Source: a virus. Taken from it: a DNA stretch of 30,295 nucleotides. Every line of letters starts with the position of its first letter. Position 1 is the stretch's first letter. The notes beneath the pieces are model-generated. The model saw only the letters and a program-made list of their open reading frames with translations, was not told where the DNA came from and searched no databases. Location of the stretch: the IMG/VR virus record IMGVR_UViG_3300030399_000063, positions 1-30,295 of that record; one strand, 5' to 3'. Shown in pieces: positions 2,204-28,846 of the stretch. The position numbers and the translations under genes were made by a program.

Positions 2204-2959
2204 ATGCTCGCATTTCACAATAATCCTGCTATCAAAGAAAAATACCTCGCTCGCGTCCGCGCTCACCGCGTCGCCGATGAAATCGTAAAGGGCCGATATT
2301 GGGAAAACGGTAAAGGCTGCGCTGTCGGATGTACCCTTCATTCCGGCAAGCACATGAGTTACGAAAGCGAACTTGGAATTCCAGTCGCTCTCGCTCATCT
2401 TGAAGATACGATCTTCGAGAATCTGCCAAACGAGTTAGCTCTCGAATGGCCGGCTCGATTTCTTGAAGCGGCGCATCCCGGTGCCGATCTAAGCAACGTC
2501 GTAAATCAATTCATGAGTTGGATGCTTATTGATCCCACTCATGGAGTCATTCGATTCGTCAATACTGACATGGATCGTTCGGCCATCATAGGTGTTGCTG
2601 CAATTCTTCGGACCGACGCTACCGCCGAAGAAATTGAAAAGGCACTATCGGCGGACTCGGCGGCGGACTCGGCGGCGGCACTCTCGGCGGCACTCTCGGC
2701 GCGCTCGGCGGCACTCTCGGCGTACTCGGCGGCGGACTCGGCGGCGGCACTCTCGGCGGCGTGCTCGGTGGCGGACTCGGTGGACTCGGCGGCGGACTCG
2801 GCGCGCTCGGCGGCGGCGGCACGCTCGGCGGCACGCTCGGCGGTGGACTCGGCGCGCTCGGCGGCACTCTCGGCGGACTCGGCGGCGTACTCGGCGGCGG
2901 ACTCGGCTTACATTTCTTTCTCCGATAAGCTAATTGAGTTGATGAGTATCGCCAGATGA
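2204..2959 (+). CDS. Conserved hypothetical with long Ala-Ser repeat tail
   Basis: A 251-residue protein of unknown function with a strong ribosome-binding site, CGGAGGAAATCAAAC before the ATG. Residues 1 to about 145 form an ordinary globular domain beginning LAFHNNPAIKEKYLARVRAH and containing NGKGCAVGCTLHSG. I recall similar N-termini in uncharacterised phage and bacterial proteins. Residues about 148-240 are low complexity, built from repeated xSA or ADSA-like units with D, L, R, Y, C or V at the variable position, probably helical. A short normal C-terminus (SFSDKLIELMS) closes it, so the repeat has not broken the frame. The stop overlaps the next start as ATGA. The repeat tract's role is unknown. 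Confidence 0.75.
   Translation: MLAFHNNPAIKEKYLARVRAHRVADEIVKGRYWENGKGCAVGCTLHSGKHMSYESELGIPVALAHLEDTIFENLPNELALEWPARFLEAAHPGADLSNVVNQFMSWMLIDPTHGVIRFVNTDMDRSAIIGVAAILRTDATAEEIEKALSADSAADSAAALSAALSARSAALSAYSAADSAAALSAACSVADSVDSAADSARSAAAARSAARSAVDSARSAALSADSAAYSAADSAYISFSDKLIELMSIAR
2641..2910 (+). repeat. In-frame TCGGCG tandem repeat (coding minisatellite)
   Basis: About 23 copies of TCGGCG or one-base variants recur every 9-15 bases, always as Ser-Ala codons, giving 9- to 15-base units. The absence of stops in other frames explains the spurious Arg-rich and Pro-rich overlapping ORFs. Such tracts commonly change length by slippage. Confidence 0.85.
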
Positions 2960-18625: not shown

Positions 18626-18895
18626 CTACCGGTGCCAGAAGATAATCAGCCATGCCGCCATTGCCGCAATGAGGGCGATTATCACATTCAATCGCCATCT
18701 ATTTGCCTGGTGCTGCTTATCCCGTTCCTTTTCGAGAGTGCGAAATTCAACTAGAAAATGATCCACTCGATTTTCCAATCCAGGATGTGGCGGCCCCTCC
18801 AGTTTTTCCGATACTCGATTAAGCTCCCGCCAAATCTCATCCTTACAAGATTCAAATTCTCGCCTCAATATAGGCTCATCGTTGATTGCCATCAT
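18626..18895 (-). CDS. Coiled-coil protein with C-terminal membrane helix (holin/XhlA-like)
   Basis: An 89-residue protein. Residues about 10-68 are charged and heptad-like (KDEIWRELNRVSEKLE, HFLVEFRTLEKERDKQHQ). Residues about 69-86 form a single hydrophobic helix (VIIALIAAMAAWLIIFW), ending with HR outside or in the cytoplasm. This is the plan of XhlA-type holin-associated proteins and some phage holins, and the position after the tail fibre gene is typical of lysis genes. The first ATG overlaps the fibre stop as ATGA; a second ATG follows immediately. The lysis role is inferred. No endolysin is seen beside it. Confidence 0.65.
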   Translation of the reverse strand: MMAINDEPILRREFESCKDEIWRELNRVSEKLEGPPHPGLENRVDHFLVEFRTLEKERDKQHQANRWRLNVIIALIAAMAAWLIIFWHR

Positions 18896-19722
18896 GCCCC
18901 CAGGAACTCAAGCTGGCCGTACACATACGCCTCATTACTTCCGGATTGTCCGGCCAAAACTGGAGTGCCTGTCACATTCATCACCGCCGCCAGTTGATCG
19001 CCTATAGCGCAAAGTATGATTGCGTCGAAAGGATAAGCCATCGCCCCGTCACTAACCTGCGGATATTGAGCGCACTGGCGGATGATTGAACTGTTTTTGA
19101 ATATCTGAGTACCGATCAACTGACCGGCCGGCGCGGGAAGATAAGTTACGCCGGATAACCGATATTTTCCGGCCCATAAAGCGACGAATCTGTTGGACGA
19201 AGAATGTCTCAATCCAAAAGGATCGAATTCGACCGTATCCCAGAGCACTTCGGAATTACCGGATGCTAGGGTCTGTTGAGCGCTGGCATATACGCTCGCC
19301 ACCGCTCTATCTGGAATCCATCCCGCGCCGCCCGTATCTGGATCGGTCACGTTGTTGTCAACAATCGATGTCCAAAATCCCGTCCCGGCAGCGGTGAGCA
19401 GTCGTGCCCCCTTTGGGTATCCACCGACAGCAGCGGAGAATACCGAGTCGTACTGGAAATTTCCCCCGGCATTTGCCCATACGACTGGTGCCGATATTTG
19501 CCCCAGCGCCCCGTTCATATCCAAGCCGCTCATTACCACCCCGCCCTCGGGGATAGGTGTCATAGTGGCAGGAGGGAAGCCATCATTGAAGCTCGCAGCC
19601 CCAGGTGTGACGCCGATCTGCGATGGGACAGGAACAGTCCGCTTGCCGCCGAAGCCTCCGGAAGCGGCGGCGTTGACTGCGAAGGGTTCGACGAGTTTAA
19701 CTGGTGCTCCGCTTAATAGCAT
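18892..19722 (-). CDS. Tail fibre protein with conserved phage fibre N-terminal domain
   Basis: A 276-residue structural protein. The ATG at 19722 is chosen because AAGGGG lies 6 bases upstream; an ATG at 19749 would overlap the previous gene by 26 bases. The first 150 residues match a fibre domain I recognise: SQIGVTPGAASFNDGFPPAT, then MTPIPEGG, DMNGALGQISA, GGYPKGA and NNVTDPDTGGAGW. The C-terminal 120 residues are beta-rich (SGVTYLPAPAGQ, AYVYGQLEFLGA), like C1q/collar-type receptor-binding ends. It follows the DUF2612-like baseplate gene, the usual place of a fibre. It probably contacts the host surface. Confidence 0.82.
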   Translation of the reverse strand: MLLSGAPVKLVEPFAVNAAASGGFGGKRTVPVPSQIGVTPGAASFNDGFPPATMTPIPEGGVVMSGLDMNGALGQISAPVVWANAGGNFQYDSVFSAAVGGYPKGARLLTAAGTGFWTSIVDNNVTDPDTGGAGWIPDRAVASVYASAQQTLASGNSEVLWDTVEFDPFGLRHSSSNRFVALWAGKYRLSGVTYLPAPAGQLIGTQIFKNSSIIRQCAQYPQVSDGAMAYPFDAIILCAIGDQLAAVMNVTGTPVLAGQSGSNEAYVYGQLEFLGA

Positions 19723-19723
19723 T

Positions 19724-20284
19724 TCAAACCCCTTCTGAGAATATCCCATTGCCCATAGTTGTCACCCACGGTTGACCCATTTCAGCGAAGCCGATGAGGG
19801 GGTATTCCTGTGCCTGAATTCCCATCATTACGCCAGATGGCCGCAGAAATATCCCCGACTGCTGGATTATGAGCAGTTGCGTTGGGGTGAGGGCGAATTC
19901 GAAGTTGTATACCATCGTCATTCTGCCCGTATCGAGAACATAGGCGCGCGTCCCAGCCCCAAGCCAATTTTGAAGTAATTGATTGATGGCCTGAGAACTT
20001 GGGTACAGAATGTTGCTCAGAGCCTTGAGCAACACCAATGAACGAAACGCATCCTCGTCATCCAGGAACGTACCGAGAGCCGTAATGAGCGACTGCGGGA
20101 TGCCGACAATGCGAGACCAGACGGCAAGTCCGAAAATATTGGCCGTATCCACATTGAAGATGGCGTTGTAGAAACCGTCAATATCGGCATGAGGGTCGAT
20201 ATTCGCATTCATCCCATTTACTAGAGAGAGAATGCGCGGGCTGTTGCCATATTGACTAATGATCGTCTGTTCGAGATTCTTCAT
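19724..20284 (-). CDS. Baseplate/tail protein, DUF2612-like (P2 gpI position)
   Basis: A 186-residue protein. The N-terminus shows the family pattern: YGNSPRILSLVNGMNANIDP, then ADIDGFYNAIFNVDTA and FGLAVWSRIVGIP. DEDAFRSLVLLKALSN follows. The C-terminal half is beta-rich. DUF2612 proteins occupy the place of P2 gpI, bridging baseplate wedge and tail fibres. Its ATG overlaps the J-like stop as ATGA. The order W-like, J-like, DUF2612-like, fibre is the standard contractile-tail arrangement. Confidence 0.82.
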   Translation of the reverse strand: MKNLEQTIISQYGNSPRILSLVNGMNANIDPHADIDGFYNAIFNVDTANIFGLAVWSRIVGIPQSLITALGTFLDDEDAFRSLVLLKALSNILYPSSQAINQLLQNWLGAGTRAYVLDTGRMTMVYNFEFALTPTQLLIIQQSGIFLRPSGVMMGIQAQEYPLIGFAEMGQPWVTTMGNGIFSEGV

Positions 20285-21917: not shown

Positions 21918-22573
21918 GGTATCGGCGGCGTTGTCGGTTCGGGCGGTGTTCCAAAATCATGAATGTGGGTAGCCAAGCTGATTGAATCTGGCCCGGCCAG
22001 AACGTCAGTCTCCGCTACGATTGTACCGTTAGTTCGGACCACTACGCCCATCAAGTTGATTAAGGGCGCTTGGATGGTAATCGCGATGGGCGATACGATG
22101 TTGATCCCCTCGGGGCTGAATTGGATGTACTGACTCGGAGCTGATTGACTTAAACCTAGACCGATGTACATGGCGTCCGAAAAGCTGTAGTACCGGTCAG
22201 AACCCGGATTGGCCTGAGCTTGTGTGCTAATTACCTTGGAAATATCCCGGCTAGCGAATAGGCAGAACCCTATGTCACCCGGCGCTGGATCGAGAATGAT
22301 ACCGTTGCCGGCGGCGCTCTGTATGCGCAAATAAGGGACGTTGGAAATTATGGTGTGTGGAGTGCTATTTCCGGCCCCATCCACCTGATTAACCTGTGGC
22401 TGCACATTCACGGTTCCGATGGGCGACAGACCTCCGCTGTTGGTGCATGAGATCACCCTCACCAGAGTCGCGGTCTGAATTTTGAGTATCAACTGCTCAA
22501 TCAGAAAATGCAATTGATTGTAGCGCCCATAGGTGGTGAATGGGCTGAATAGACCTGGTGGTATGTTACTCAT
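21914..22573 (-). CDS. Baseplate spike protein (gpV/gp45-like)
   Basis: A 219-residue protein. The ATG at 22573 overlaps the hub stop as ATGA; a longer frame to 22621 only shadows the hub gene. The N-terminal half contains an OB-like region (LVRVISCTNSGGLSPIGTVN, PAPGDIGFCLFASRDIS). The following repeated short strands (GINIVSPIAITIQAPLINLM, GVVVRTNGTIVAETDVLAG) form a triple beta-helix. The C-terminal THIHDFGTP carries the HxH motif that binds an iron ion at the tip of P2/phi92-type spikes. It is the membrane-piercing tip of the contractile tail. Confidence 0.85.
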   Translation of the reverse strand: MSNIPPGLFSPFTTYGRYNQLHFLIEQLILKIQTATLVRVISCTNSGGLSPIGTVNVQPQVNQVDGAGNSTPHTIISNVPYLRIQSAAGNGIILDPAPGDIGFCLFASRDISKVISTQAQANPGSDRYYSFSDAMYIGLGLSQSAPSQYIQFSPEGINIVSPIAITIQAPLINLMGVVVRTNGTIVAETDVLAGPDSISLATHIHDFGTPPEPTTPPIP

Positions 22574-23481
22574 GATGACAACGCCAATCCGGTTTTGGAA
22601 CCGCGAATATCCATCAACCACGATCCGTTAGGTTTCGCGCTCTCTAGCTTGAGGCTGAGACTGGTGACGATCCAAGGCCCTTCCGCACGCGGCGTCTCGG
22701 GGCTAAGGATCTGCACGCTTCCGCCGAAGGTCACGGAAGGACTGAATAGCATTTGAAACTTCACCCCCACCCCGTCGAAGGTAGGGTAGCCTTTGAGTCC
22801 GGATGTTTGGGATATGATCGGGACGAACTTAATGCGAGGTTGATTAACTGGGGTGATGGCGATGATGGTGTTATCGACATAAAGCCAGATGTTGTTATCA
22901 CGGGCGATATCCTTCAATTGCTCAAGGCCAGTGTTGGCATAATACGGGTTTTTGATGGGAGTAAACGGGACTCCGTTATTTTCAAAAGTGTAGACAGGTT
23001 GACCTGAATTGATACTGGCGTTGATTTTACCAATGACAATCTGCATCAGAGAGACGGCATCCGTGGGGCCGGAGAAGGCCGTAGGGGTAATGGGCTGCAA
23101 GGCGCTGAAGTAGGCCGCCTGAGCTCGGATACTGAGATATACATCCGGCATGTTGTCGTAGTTGGCCCAGGCGTTGACGATGTTGCCGACGAAGACGAGA
23201 GTGGTCTGATCGCCGTCTACGGCGAATATTTGAACCGTATTGGGAATGAATGCGAGCGGCTGCCACTGTATTGTGGTTAAGGAATTCATTTCACTTTGCT
23301 TGACTCCGAATATGGAAGCTCGCAAAGTACCCATCATCGCCCCGCCGGCCTTGTCGATATCGACGACTGCGCGAAATCCCTGAAGCGTGACTGTATTGCC
23401 CGAAGACGACGAACCGAAGTTCCCCGTCCCGAGAGTGAACACAAACTTCAAATCTTTCGAATTGTCGAAGGATAGGGTCAT
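22570..23481 (-). CDS. Baseplate hub protein (gp27/gp44/gpD-like)
   Basis: A 303-residue protein between fibre and spike genes. The start reads as strands with a conserved hub motif (AVVDIDKAGGAMMGTLRASI, FGVKQSEMNSLTTI). It continues with FVGNIVNAWANY, then QLKDIARDNNIWLYVDNTII, where the NIWLYVDNTIIAI run fits hub proteins of the Mu gp44/P2 gpD type. Near the C-terminus GPWIVTSLSLKLESAKPNGS, followed by W, is typical of phage hub ends. It should form the trimeric ring that holds the spike. Motif conservation is moderate, so the call relies partly on gene order. Confidence 0.75.
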   Translation of the reverse strand: MTLSFDNSKDLKFVFTLGTGNFGSSSSGNTVTLQGFRAVVDIDKAGGAMMGTLRASIFGVKQSEMNSLTTIQWQPLAFIPNTVQIFAVDGDQTTLVFVGNIVNAWANYDNMPDVYLSIRAQAAYFSALQPITPTAFSGPTDAVSLMQIVIGKINASINSGQPVYTFENNGVPFTPIKNPYYANTGLEQLKDIARDNNIWLYVDNTIIAITPVNQPRIKFVPIISQTSGLKGYPTFDGVGVKFQMLFSPSVTFGGSVQILSPETPRAEGPWIVTSLSLKLESAKPNGSWLMDIRGSKTGLALSS

Positions 23482-23837
23482 TTGCAGTAAAGAACCCCCT
23501 GTGGAAATACCTGCCTTAAAGTCGCCCGTTCACTGGGGCCGTGCATCGGAGCTTCTTCCATCAGATCTCCGTTGGGAAAGTACCGCCGGGGCGCGAAGCT
23601 CAAATGAGGGAACTCCGCAGGGCATGAGAAATTGACCTGACGACCGTCCGCCGAAGTGACGACTATCCCCTTGGAGGTGGTCACGATTTTGATCGGATAG
23701 CAGGCTTCCTTGTGATTGTTGGAAACTCCACATTGAATAGCGGGAGCGGTGGCGACTGGCGCGGCGATGGGCTTTGAGCATCCTTCGATAACAAAGGCCA
23801 TCGCGATAATAGTTTCGATACATGAGATTTTTTTCAT
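23478..23837 (-). CDS. Putative small secreted or lipoprotein inserted in the tail module
   Basis: A 119-residue protein. The N-terminus MKKISCIETIIAMAFVIEGC is a short signal sequence ending in a lipobox-like VIEGC; the -2 Glu deviates from the usual consensus. The mature part is Ala/Pro-rich, then beta-rich with Cys residues that could pair. It starts one base after the stop of the large fibre gene and overlaps the hub start as ATGA. It is not a recognisable tail protein. It could be an envelope-located accessory (for example affecting superinfection) or a cargo gene carried with the fibre. The function is unknown. Confidence 0.55.
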   Translation of the reverse strand: MKKISCIETIIAMAFVIEGCSKPIAAPVATAPAIQCGVSNNHKEACYPIKIVTTSKGIVVTSADGRQVNFSCPAEFPHLSFAPRRYFPNGDLMEEAPMHGPSERATLRQVFPQGVLYCK

Positions 23838-23838
23838 A

Positions 23839-26800
23839 TCAATTGAATTGCTTGCAGGTCATCGTGCCCGATGTTAGAAGTGCGCTGTACCACTGGCAAA
23901 GTTCCAAATGGCCGATTGCATTTGGATGCAAACCGTCCAAGCTGCTTATTGACGTGAACGATTGGGCTGTGAAGCTTAGGGTAACTCCGGTTTCGGGTCC
24001 GCTAGCCGTTGTCGGTACGGTTGTTCCGGTGGCATAATTGCGGCCAGGCTGGCCGCCGATTACAGTAGCGACTGCCGCTCCCGAGCAAGTGTTGACCAGG
24101 AAGTATCCACCATAGGAACCCGCCTGTGTTGGGATGATCTTGTCACCTACATTACAGCCCCCGGTTCCGCCGCTTACCACCGTAGCAGTTGCAGGGAGAA
24201 CTAGGCTTAAGTCTGGCGGATAGTAAGTGTAGGCACCGACCGTCACCCCCGGTGCGCCCGGTCCATCTTCGAGATACGTGCATGTGCCGAGCGTCAAGCA
24301 AAGATCCTGTACCATGATGCGCCACTGAGTACGAGAAGAGGCTCCTGATATTACCGTTCCGGCGGCAACCGCCGTAGATGTCCATACGCCTCCGACAAGG
24401 GTCATAGCCGTCAACGCCGTAGTGGTTGTATAGCTATCTCCGGTACATGCGTCCGTGCCGGTCTCAGTATATCCCCCGTTGTTAAGGATGGCTGGTATAT
24501 AGATAGTCATGCTGCTATTCACGGCCTTGAGCGCAGCTATCGCATTTTTGAGCGCATAGGCTTCGATGCCGACGCAGTTCGCTGTTGATCCATAAATCGA
24601 AGATAGATGGACGAAATCGTTGATACCCCGAGCAATGATTGCAGTGGTCAACGATGAAGGCCCAGAGGTCTCCAGCGGGGTAACGTAGCTGTTGGCCCAT
24701 GTCGTCGCGTATGAGGCCGGGAATCCGCTTCCTCCACCCGCCGTAGTGATTGCGCTGGGCGAAGTTGGCGTGTTGAAATCCATAACAGTTGTTGCGCCAC
24801 CAAATCCTATAGCCGCAATGTTGGGAGTGGGTTGATTGCTACCGTATCTCCACATTGGACAAAATGAATCTGAGCTGCTGTAGGGCGGTGCGTTAAATCC
24901 TGAGCAAAGAATCGAGTCAGTGACTACCATCGTCACGTTGCCTGTTTCGGTTACCGGAACGGCGGTATATTGTTGATTGTTTGGAATCGAGAAGCTGTTC
25001 AGGAACATACCGTCCAACTGCCCATAGAGGTCTGCGGCTGTAAAGCCGACCGCACTGTTTCCGAGCACCGCCCCAATGTTCACGTCAACGTAATAAAAGG
25101 TCGATCCTCCAGTGCCGGGAAGCGATACGTCCATATAACTATTTTGGCTGGCGTTTTGGATAGACGAGCTTTCCGCCGGAACCATGTTAGCAAGAGATGT
25201 CCCCACCCTTACCGTAGCGTCCTGACCATCGGCATCGGAGAACGGGAGGCCTGGAGAAAATGCGAAGCGTATGGAGGGAGCGTTGGTGAAAATCACCGCA
25301 TGAGATTGGGACCACTGGCCGTAGTAACTCAGGTTTCCAGCGGGATTGATCGAACCAACAGTGAAAAAAGCGTCAGCGGATGATCCCGTTTGTGTCGGAA
25401 ATACTCGACAGCCCACCGAGAAGCTCGCGCCGGGGTTGGCAATCGTCGCACCTGTAATCACGCCACCGGAAGCGGTAATGTTGAGTAAAACGCCCTGCCC
25501 GTTACCCGAGCATCCGCTGGCGGTCGTTGTCGGAACGTTGTTTTGTGTCGAGTAACCTGACGTTCCAGCATTGGTAAGCGTTAGCGAAGTGACTGTGTTG
25601 AAGTTGCCGCCGTTCGTGTACGGAAATGAGAAAGTGATGAACGGGGAATCGTGAAGGAATGGGTCGCCGTTGAAAAACGTGTGGGTATTCCACAGGGGGG
25701 CTGGTTGGGATGCGAGGGAAGTGAAAGCGTTGTTAGTAAAGCCATTCTCCGCCGATAACCAACCCGAGCAACTCCCGGCTGAAAGGAATCCGCAATACAT
25801 ACCAGCGACCTGCGGTTGGGTTAGTTGCACGCCGGGGATATACCCAAACTCTTCAATCGCATAGTTAATTGACCCTGAAGTTTCCCAGGCAGACGCAGAC
25901 GTGGCTGAAAGCGTTGAAGTCATCAAAGGAGAGATGAGAGTTGCACTGCCGTCGTTCATCATCGCACGCCATGTACCGTTGCCAAAATCTACCAGCGTGG
26001 TAAGAGTCCCATTGAGTCCACCAGCTCCGTTAATCCCAGAATTAGATGTATAAGTTGGAAAGGACCAAGTGACGAAAGAGGATGTTGCCGTGTTAAACTC
26101 GGCGGCGAATCCGACTCCCAACTCAATCTCAAGTGATTTGGCTATGATAAAGGTATTGCCCGGAAAAACTGGATTTGTGCATGATCCCGATGTAGTGCAA
26201 CTCAGCAATGGGGCTGCCCTTACCCATGTTGTGAACCCACCTACGTTAAACCCCGTACCCCAACTAGTGCTGCTTGCCTTATATCTTGGCAATGTAGCGG
26301 TCGATAACGTAGCAGCGGAACCCGTAATCTGCGAGGTTGAAGTTACTACAGTCCCACCAAATGCATAGGTCAATCCAGGGAGACCGATGGGGGTTGGCAT
26401 GATGGACGGGCCGTTGCCCACAGAACCTTGCTCGCACCAACCTGAGTTTGGGATGCCAAATCCAAATCCACCGGGGTTGAAATTCGGAAATCCCGAAGCC
26501 CCACCCACTGTTTGCACAAAGGTCGTAGACGTGCCTGTGGGGAGAATGTTGCTCACTGTCGCAGGACAAGTGCTTGCTCCGGTTGGATTGAAACGGAACA
26601 CTCCCGCCGTAGCCGCGCCCGCGACGCTAGTCTGAAGCGCGGTCGGTACGATGATTCCATTGCTATTCAATGCTGCCTGTTGGCTGAGCAATGAGTTGTT
26701 CATTGGAGTCAAAGCGGCGGCGCAACTCGCTACCGTTCCGGCTGCACACGCGGCTATGTTCGTAGCTTGATTTGCATACGGCGTCGCCGGCATCGCATAA

Positions 26801-27804
26801 AGATCCGGAGTGGCTGTGCCAGCTAAGGCCGGGCCGGTTGTATAGGCATTCGTTCCGGGAGTGATGCCGGTAACTGTCAGGTTTGTATTTTGAAACGGAA
26901 CGGCGGTCACATTCGGCAAAGTTCCCGACGGCGTCTGACAGGTCGTAGTACTCCCGTTGTAAAAGATGAATCCCGTCCCGGAAGGACATAGGACTACTGC
27001 AATTTGAGGTCCAGTAGCGACACCAGTGGTATTCAACGCAGTTCGCACTACAAGCCCATTTGCTCCGGGATCTCCAAGGCCGCCCGCACTTGAAGTTTGA
27101 GGATTGACTAAAGTCCATCCACTTCCGTTCCATTGAGCATGTGCTACCACGGTTGATAGCATATCGTTGGCAGCAAGGGCCGCTCCCGCTTGCTTGGTGA
27201 TTACCGTCGCACTCCCAGGCGCGACAGCGAGGGTTGGCGTTGTGATTGCATTCCCTGCATGGGGTAGGAAATTCACGGTCAACCCGGTCACAATCGAGGC
27301 AGGGGTAGGACTAAGGGCTACAGTATAGACGTTGGCGACACTACTGCTATCAGTCCCCATTACAGCAGCAGATAGAGTTGCTGCACTCGGAGGCATGAAT
27401 GGAGTTCGGTTATCGTCAAGGCTGGTGATTGAGGATGATCCTGCGACAATGGTAGCCAGCAATGTCCCTGCTGCGGTCGAAAGAGACGTGCTCAAAGCAG
27501 GCGTACAAATTGCGGCAGTATTGAGGTACAGATAATTAGTCGCGCTCGCCGTCAGTGTCAAAATTCCGCCGGCATACTCAACATTCTTTCCGCCACAATT
27601 CACTGTGCCCGGACCTACCTGCAAATTCAAACCCGTGACCGCTGTGCAATTGGTTGCCGCATTCCCGCAAGGTGCATAACCAGGCGCAATCCCGTTCGAA
27701 TATTTTGCATTGGCAGGAAAGATGGGGGCCTGTTGAGACTGAGGGTTCTGGGCAAAAACAACAGTAGCGGCGAACATCAGCCACGGCGCAATGAGTTTCT
27801 TCAT
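23839..27804 (-). CDS. Large SGNH-hydrolase tail fibre with N-terminal signal-like sequence
   Basis: A 1321-residue protein. The ATG at 27804 has AAGGGG 6 bases upstream. The first residues, MKKLIAPWLMFAATVVFAQ, look like a Sec signal with a VFA cleavage site, unexpected for a virion protein. Residues up to about 250 contain fibre-like segments (NVYTVALSPTPASIVTGLTV, AQWNGSGWTLVNPQT). The centre is a long Gly/Thr/Ser-rich beta region. The last 360 residues form an SGNH hydrolase: VTDSILCSG near 961 (GDS block, Gly replaced by Thr), FGGATT near 1003, RGINDF near 1061 (GxND), and DGLHPNAIGH near 1288 (DxxH). It probably deacetylates or cleaves host surface glycans during adsorption. The esterase call is strong; its virion location is inferred from gene order. 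Confidence 0.75.
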   Translation of the reverse strand: MKKLIAPWLMFAATVVFAQNPQSQQAPIFPANAKYSNGIAPGYAPCGNAATNCTAVTGLNLQVGPGTVNCGGKNVEYAGGILTLTASATNYLYLNTAAICTPALSTSLSTAAGTLLATIVAGSSSITSLDDNRTPFMPPSAATLSAAVMGTDSSSVANVYTVALSPTPASIVTGLTVNFLPHAGNAITTPTLAVAPGSATVITKQAGAALAANDMLSTVVAHAQWNGSGWTLVNPQTSSAGGLGDPGANGLVVRTALNTTGVATGPQIAVVLCPSGTGFIFYNGSTTTCQTPSGTLPNVTAVPFQNTNLTVTGITPGTNAYTTGPALAGTATPDLYAMPATPYANQATNIAACAAGTVASCAAALTPMNNSLLSQQAALNSNGIIVPTALQTSVAGAATAGVFRFNPTGASTCPATVSNILPTGTSTTFVQTVGGASGFPNFNPGGFGFGIPNSGWCEQGSVGNGPSIMPTPIGLPGLTYAFGGTVVTSTSQITGSAATLSTATLPRYKASSTSWGTGFNVGGFTTWVRAAPLLSCTTSGSCTNPVFPGNTFIIAKSLEIELGVGFAAEFNTATSSFVTWSFPTYTSNSGINGAGGLNGTLTTLVDFGNGTWRAMMNDGSATLISPLMTSTLSATSASAWETSGSINYAIEEFGYIPGVQLTQPQVAGMYCGFLSAGSCSGWLSAENGFTNNAFTSLASQPAPLWNTHTFFNGDPFLHDSPFITFSFPYTNGGNFNTVTSLTLTNAGTSGYSTQNNVPTTTASGCSGNGQGVLLNITASGGVITGATIANPGASFSVGCRVFPTQTGSSADAFFTVGSINPAGNLSYYGQWSQSHAVIFTNAPSIRFAFSPGLPFSDADGQDATVRVGTSLANMVPAESSSIQNASQNSYMDVSLPGTGGSTFYYVDVNIGAVLGNSAVGFTAADLYGQLDGMFLNSFSIPNNQQYTAVPVTETGNVTMVVTDSILCSGFNAPPYSSSDSFCPMWRYGSNQPTPNIAAIGFGGATTVMDFNTPTSPSAITTAGGGSGFPASYATTWANSYVTPLETSGPSSLTTAIIARGINDFVHLSSIYGSTANCVGIEAYALKNAIAALKAVNSSMTIYIPAILNNGGYTETGTDACTGDSYTTTTALTAMTLVGGVWTSTAVAAGTVISGASSRTQWRIMVQDLCLTLGTCTYLEDGPGAPGVTVGAYTYYPPDLSLVLPATATVVSGGTGGCNVGDKIIPTQAGSYGGYFLVNTCSGAAVATVIGGQPGRNYATGTTVPTTASGPETGVTLSFTAQSFTSISSLDGLHPNAIGHLELCQWYSALLTSGTMTCKQFN

Positions 27805-27814
27805 CGTATTCCCC

Positions 27815-28846
27815 TTATGCATAGACAGAAATGAGTGCGGTCAGGCCCGTATCTGAAGCGTCCAGATAGACGTTTGTTGCGTCGAAAGCTGGCGTCTGAG
27901 CGATAATCTGACCGCCCGAAAGCATGAAAATGTTTATGCGACTCGGGGAGGCCAACAGTCCGTGAGGAACCGTAAGCAATCCGGGGTCACTTGAAGTCAC
28001 TGTCAATACTGTAGCTGAATCCGTGATGTTTATGGCGGTGTTGACCATTTGGAACACGGTTATTTTGGCAGTCACTCCGGCCCCGGTAGCCGTAAAGTAC
28101 ACATTGGAATCGTCAGCAGATGAGGATTGCCATATGCAACCGAAGGATGTTGGCAGAATCTCAATCAGGCTGGGGACGAATCCGAGCCCATGCGGGACCG
28201 CGAACTGCACGCCGGCACTCGGGGCATTGACTGCAAGACTGGCCGCTGGAGGTTGGACTGGCGGCGCGATGCGAGTGACTTCAGATTGAGCTGGAGGCCG
28301 GTAGACAAAGATCATTGCGGTAACGCCCACGTCCGAGCCCACCAGATAAATGTTGGTGTTGTCGGCAAAGAAGGTCTGCCCCCAGATAGCCCCCGGCGAT
28401 GTGGGCACAATCTCCAGCACGGTAGGTATGCCTACGATGCCGTGAGGGACGCTGAAGTCCCCACCGTTGGGTGATGTGACCAGAAGTACCGCTTCGAGCT
28501 GTAGGACATTGGGGATTCCGACTGCGGCGAAGGCGGTCTCAAGCACCTCGGCGGCCGTCAGATAGACAAGCATCCATCTGGAATTCAGGCCAGTGTATAC
28601 GGGATCATCGAAGCCTTGAGTATCTAAGAAATATAGATTTCCTTGGAAGCCATCGTAGGAATTGGCGGCATCTAGCGGGACTGCATTTAGAGCAATGCAT
28701 CCGATGCACATATCGACGCCATTGGAATTGATATCCACGTAGAGGTTTTGATTGCGCAGGTAAATATTGATCTGACAATTCTGCCCTCCGAGCACGCAGA
28801 GAACTATCTGATTTGGGACCGCCTGAATTGGGATAGTCTGCGCCAT
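27815..28846 (-). CDS. DUF6983-like tail protein with three C-terminal repeat domains
   Basis: A 343-residue protein. Residues 1-105 match a phage baseplate-associated family: IPIQAVPNQIVLCVLGGQNC, then INIYLRNQNLYVDINSNGV, YDGFQGNLYFLDTQGFDDPV and LNSRWMLVYL. The rest holds three related copies of about 62 residues (roughly 121-182, 206-266, 281-343). Each has VPHGL/I, a P-x-x-I/L-x-I strand, an N-x-Y segment and a closing T-A-x-I-x-V-Y. A proline-rich linker separates copies 1 and 2. The repeats are probably beta-sandwich appendages exposed on the virion. The start lies 6 bases after the upstream gene. Confidence 0.7.
   Translation of the reverse strand: MAQTIPIQAVPNQIVLCVLGGQNCQINIYLRNQNLYVDINSNGVDMCIGCIALNAVPLDAANSYDGFQGNLYFLDTQGFDDPVYTGLNSRWMLVYLTAAEVLETAFAAVGIPNVLQLEAVLLVTSPNGGDFSVPHGIVGIPTVLEIVPTSPGAIWGQTFFADNTNIYLVGSDVGVTAMIFVYRPPAQSEVTRIAPPVQPPAASLAVNAPSAGVQFAVPHGLGFVPSLIEILPTSFGCIWQSSSADDSNVYFTATGAGVTAKITVFQMVNTAINITDSATVLTVTSSDPGLLTVPHGLLASPSRINIFMLSGGQIIAQTPAFDATNVYLDASDTGLTALISVYA

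Follow-up and report, generated by a model that had tools for sequence, protein, structure and literature searches.

Tailspikes of the classical kind are synthesised in the cytoplasm and joined to the particle there, and the fibres of tailed phages at large are assumed to be produced in the same way; filamentous phages provide the familiar case of virion proteins (pIII and pVIII) that are routed through Sec, with cleavage of their signals. A search of openly licensed PMC papers turned up no description of a tailed-phage fibre with a signal peptide. The DNA analysed here (the window) is a 30,295-nucleotide fragment of an IMG/VR virus (IMGVR_UViG_3300030399_000063), and the gene in question encodes a giant tail fibre that begins with a Sec-type signal peptide. 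The most economical model, to which we give a probability of about 0.55, is that this fibre is exported by the host Sec pathway, folds with disulfides in the periplasm and joins the virions at lysis, with a free secreted enzyme as the main rival. The coordinates in the preliminary description of the gene, 23839-27804, are exact, and the gene lies on the minus strand with the following parts:

23839..27804, minus strand: giant tail fibre gene, predicted to be exported (open reading frame (ORF) and translation; 1321 aa plus stop)
27751..27804, minus strand: Sec-type signal peptide, residues 1-18, predicted cleavage VFA/QNPQ (from the sequence; conserved as a property across the family)
27391..27750, minus strand: N-terminal 'NAKY' module, residues 19-138, with cysteine pairs C46/C53 and C70/C100 (alignments, AlphaFold, Foldseek)
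27070..27387, minus strand: second module, residues 140-245 (shared closely with locus L022 only)
23842..24987, minus strand: SGNH-hydrolase-like C-terminal region, about residues 940-1321 (motifs TDS 962-964, GIND 1060-1063, DGLHPN 1290-1295)

The ATG at 27804 is preceded closely by AAGGGG, which resembles a ribosome-binding site, and the stop codon ends at 23839. The N-terminus, MKKLIAPWLMFAATVVFA followed by QNPQ, has the charged n-region and hydrophobic core of a signal peptide, closes with the cleavage motif V-F-A, and passes a rule-based test for Sec/signal peptidase I substrates (n-region, h-region, small residues at -1/-3); this simple rule, rather than a trained predictor, was used to score the signal peptides. 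Relatives reached through baseplate J carry a fibre at the same place, with the first ∼140 residues 49-62% identical and unrelated remainders. A scan of genome contigs with an alignment that included the signal gave no relatives, and the mature-module alignment, used afterwards as the query, recovered 49 viral loci; a further 6 came from the scan of 84,980 species genomes, and each of these lay in a metagenome-assembled genome (MAG) of Acidobacteriota. The rule is passed by 47 of 52 related loci, and 4 of the remaining 5 show a hydrophobic start, so that the hydrophobic start is not there by chance, in support of the credible export signal ending in VFA that had been noted at the outset; the divergent locus L072 is the sole one of the 52 without such a start. 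By comparison, 19 of 213 other plus-strand ORFs at the same loci pass, several of which appear to be additional exported fibres beside the first.

Because the 52 loci include near-duplicates, the comparison of signals was made on 44 distinct ones. A stricter version of the rule was passed by 37 of 44 fibres. Across the 44 distinct signals, the pairwise identity of the h-region is 15% (12% expected from composition), compared with 42% for the first 25 mature residues, and the hydrophobicity of the core is kept despite the sequence divergence. The residue at -1 is A, G or S in 42/44, and Q occupies +1 almost always. Two rows of the comparison, L041 and L049, are not true signals, as extra repeats part signal from module, and their real signals sit at the N-terminus. 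The signal peptide is thus judged, on the sequences, almost certain to be functional. Several hundred extra residues lie between signal and NAKY module in L027 (identical to L041), L049 and L081, and those of L027 include Ig-like repeats. Proteins with signal peptides also occur directly 3′ of the fibre (L056:9456-10973, L057:9239-11482, L045, L060, L063, L073 and L075), the one in L056 being a second NAKY fibre. As predicted from their signals, exported fibre genes come in clusters.

Within the module, the cysteine pair C70/C100 is invariant in an alignment of 8 diverse members, in which C46/C53 is wholly present in 3 and wholly absent in 5. Both C70 and C100 are lost in L075 and in the signal-less L072, and the pair is also missing from two signal-less homologues, Anabaena phage Elbi gp71 and a Syntrophomonadaceae phage tail protein. 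These two remote proteins and the divergent L072 are the only homologues without a hydrophobic start, a class that the preliminary description had named as evidence against an export signal. Tail proteins of ∼215 aa that lie beside the fibres and carry a repeat that we name PHGL have no signal at their start and almost no cysteine, and several of them match the NAKY profile (best E=1.4e-8). Among complete fibres the cysteine number is even in 31/37 (p=4e-5), and in the myophage clade the fibres contain 1.71 cysteines per 100 aa versus 0.57 in the other structural proteins of the same phages. This pattern points to disulfide-bonded exported proteins, with which it fits without being proof of export. 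Since relatives without a signal lack the module pair and most fibres have an even total of cysteines, an oxidising compartment is indicated, and we regard export to such a compartment as very likely.

The NAKY module (∼120 aa) is what the relatives have in common, and the C-termini beyond it are mutually unrelated. Its AlphaFold model has a predicted local distance difference test (pLDDT) score of about 90 over the core, and the best solved-structure match in Foldseek is the tail fibre of cyanophage A-1(L) (8kec, E=1.6e-4), followed by weaker matches to phage tropism determinants and receptor-binding proteins. Among 44 members, 3 match a pectate-lyase-like family, 2 beta-helix and 1 GDSL, and many of the PHROG matches are to tail spike, tail fibre or tail proteins. 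The window fibre itself has 0 Pfam and 0 PHROG matches; the whole protein found no match among INPHARED phages by tblastn, and a PDB sequence search gave a chance antibody match alone (E=0.13). Its closest relative in the second module, L022, is 68% identical over residues 2-242. The fibre-type N-terminal fold, the swapped C-terminus and the location in the tail/baseplate module are those of a tail fibre or tailspike, and the protein is probably a modular example of these.

The SGNH ending that had been assigned to the fibre stands on motifs: TDS, GIND and DGLH(PN) are candidates for blocks I, III and V (Ser, Asn and Asp-x-x-His), with Thr in place of Gly in block I (T962-D963-S964) just as first described, and the match to Pfam Lipase_GDSL_2 (E=0.055) falls below the cut-off. 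Structure prediction, which had been proposed as a check, was informative for the NAKY core and failed for the C-terminal 422 aa, where a single-sequence AlphaFold model had a pLDDT of 32 and was discarded.

The fibre start codon lies directly beyond the stop codon of a baseplate plug, and the order of transcription is Pam3 gp18-domain plug, fibre, small putative lipoprotein, baseplate hub, spike-like and wedge proteins, baseplate J, DUF2612 protein and second fibre. The plug and hub on either side (Pfam, PHROG) bear out the placement within a baseplate operon. The relevant neighbours are:

27815..28846, minus strand: baseplate plug (Pam3 gp18-like; Pfam PF22479, E=4.4e-15), extended at its C-terminus by three PHGL repeats (PHGL hidden Markov model, HMM)
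28280..28492, minus strand: PHGL repeat 1 (HMM)
28031..28243, minus strand: PHGL repeat 2 (HMM)
27818..28012, minus strand: PHGL repeat 3 (PHGL HMM)
23478..23837, minus strand: small putative lipoprotein, 119 aa, ...VIEGCSKP, directly 3′ of the fibre (analogues in L009, L010 and L022)
22570..23481, minus strand: baseplate hub, gp41-like (PF22759, E=6.6e-17; phrog_196)
18892..19749, minus strand: second tail fibre, of ordinary type, without signal peptide and with 2 Cys in 285 aa (phrog_12796 tail fiber, E=1e-32)

The second fibre served as an internal control for signal peptide and cysteine content. The position of the small lipoprotein recalls that of the T5 lipoprotein Llp, whose gene lies beside that of the receptor-binding protein.

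PHGL is a repeat domain of ∼65 aa that has no Pfam or PHROG name. Its HMM detects a gene at positions -1 to -5 before the fibre in 46/53 loci, which becomes 47/53 with L081, once the ORF is chosen correctly there; a PHGL gene is also found at L114. The domain is found on plugs, on tail-tip proteins of ∼1000-1300 aa and on small proteins, and therefore spans tail types. At the short plugs that lack it (L016-L019) there is no fibre gene at that place. Of 399 Acidobacteriota-class genomes, 21 contain the module and 32 contain PHGL, and the two often lie on one contig, no more than a few hundred bases apart. Overlap of the fibre start with the PHGL stop is frequent in MAGs. Several genomes have, next after PHGL, signal-bearing beta-helix proteins without a NAKY module; as far as can be read from the loci, the module is less constant than either the signal or the PHGL neighbour. 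Since the PHGL gene lies just upstream in most loci, the fibre probably belongs to the virion and docks on the PHGL-bearing protein. At L125, L130 and L132, which come from different Acidobacteriota genomes, a PHGL tail gene has no fibre behind it and is succeeded each time by one and the same host membrane-protein gene; these loci look like an old, vertically kept prophage-like element.

From these sequences, folds and linkages we infer the compartment and the presence in virions as follows. The fibre would be translocated by Sec during infection, its signal would then be cleaved, and its disulfides would form in the periplasm. At lysis, the mature fibre would attach to the released virions, probably via the PHGL-bearing plug or tail-tip protein, and its C-terminal SGNH-like domain may remove acetyl or other ester groups from host exopolysaccharide as the phage attaches. 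That the fibre later joins the virion is rated at even odds or a little above. Several observations weigh against this model. The second fibre of the window has no signal, and export is thus not needed for fibres generally; the tail proteins examined in the cultured phages Tunturi_3, 4 and 5 have no signal peptides; some MAG loci carry PHGL with no fibre behind it, and six loci have no PHGL gene in the stretch examined. The linkage of PHGL and fibre is, moreover, genetic and not physical.

The best-surviving alternative is that the protein is a free secreted exopolysaccharide esterase or depolymerase, never in the virion, that has borrowed a fibre N-domain, and that would clear the matrix around infected cells, aid spread or alter receptors against other phages. 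The export signal, the enzyme-like C-termini and the neighbouring lipoprotein are as expected of such an enzyme, and the export half of the secreted esterase first suggested is well supported. The conserved part is, however, a module of tail-fibre fold, and tail-tip genes accompany the fibre gene across tail types, a coupling for which a free enzyme would have no need; together with the swapped C-termini, the fibre fold and the linked PHGL gene favour a role in the virion, and we consider the free enzyme unlikely, though the strongest of the alternatives. Less probable still, and in our estimate doubtful, is an uncleaved signal whose hydrophobic residues serve as an assembly element or membrane anchor of a virion fibre. 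In its favour, tailed phages as a rule put their virions together in the cytoplasm, but the conserved A/Q cleavage site and the confinement of cysteine pairing to signal-bearing versions disfavour a hydrophobic start acting in assembly, as does the signal of L027 and L049, which stays at the very N-terminus though several hundred residues from the module. A host exoprotein captured by the phage and fused to fibre sequence, or an assembly chimera, has only a general resemblance to exported host enzymes in its favour and was rejected as very improbable, because the signal peptide is family-wide, in a shared architecture, and kept with many different C-termini, and because 100% copies of the fibre occur in independent IMG/VR contigs with unchanged gene order.

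Apart from the tail genes, the window encodes at 2204-2959 (plus strand) a protein of 251 aa whose tail is a long Ala/Ser/Asp repeat (SAADSAAALSA...), and an Arg-rich ORF lies in a different frame within this gene region at 2592-2933.

The exported, disulfide-bonded fibre preferred here has possible counterparts in cultured phages. Tunturi_1 and Tunturi_2 were isolated on Tunturiibacter psychrotolerans (PMC11924767), in a paper that contains no virion proteomics and no discussion of signal peptides. These podophages (L139, 10371-23028, and L140) contain a run of signal-peptide fibre/spike genes: gp12, gp13 (tail fiber), gp14 (tail spike/pectin lyase), gp16 and gp17 (virion structural) have clear signal peptides and 20, 10, 21, 2 and 32 cysteines, respectively, whereas their remaining virion proteins lack a signal and are poor in cysteine. 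They share with the window family the Sec-type signals, the high cysteine content and the Acidobacteriota hosts, but the genes are unrelated, and a scan of their tail and structural proteins gave no NAKY or PHGL match. It is about an even chance that many phages of Acidobacteriota build tails in two compartments, with particles in the cytoplasm and Sec-exported, disulfide-bonded fibres that dock on a PHGL adaptor only when the two mix at lysis. If so, exported disulfide-type fibres throughout the phylum would mean that tails are assembled in a different order, perhaps one that suits acidic soils, and would account for fibres missed by standard annotation; cultured phages with hosts make the export model directly testable.

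Among described systems, the tail fibre of cyanophage A-1(L) has the same N-terminal module fold as the window fibre, and the tail collar protein Elbi gp71 shows weak similarity (33%) but differs in lacking both the signal peptide and C70/C100. Modular tailspikes and depolymerases likewise combine a conserved N-domain with swapped enzymatic C-domains, including beta-helix/pectate-lyase and GDSL-type C-termini, and are encoded at the same position by the baseplate or tail tip; the window family differs from them by its Sec signals and cysteine pairs. Filamentous phage coat proteins are routed through Sec, as proposed for this fibre, but they belong to phages without tails and are assembled at the inner membrane without lysis.
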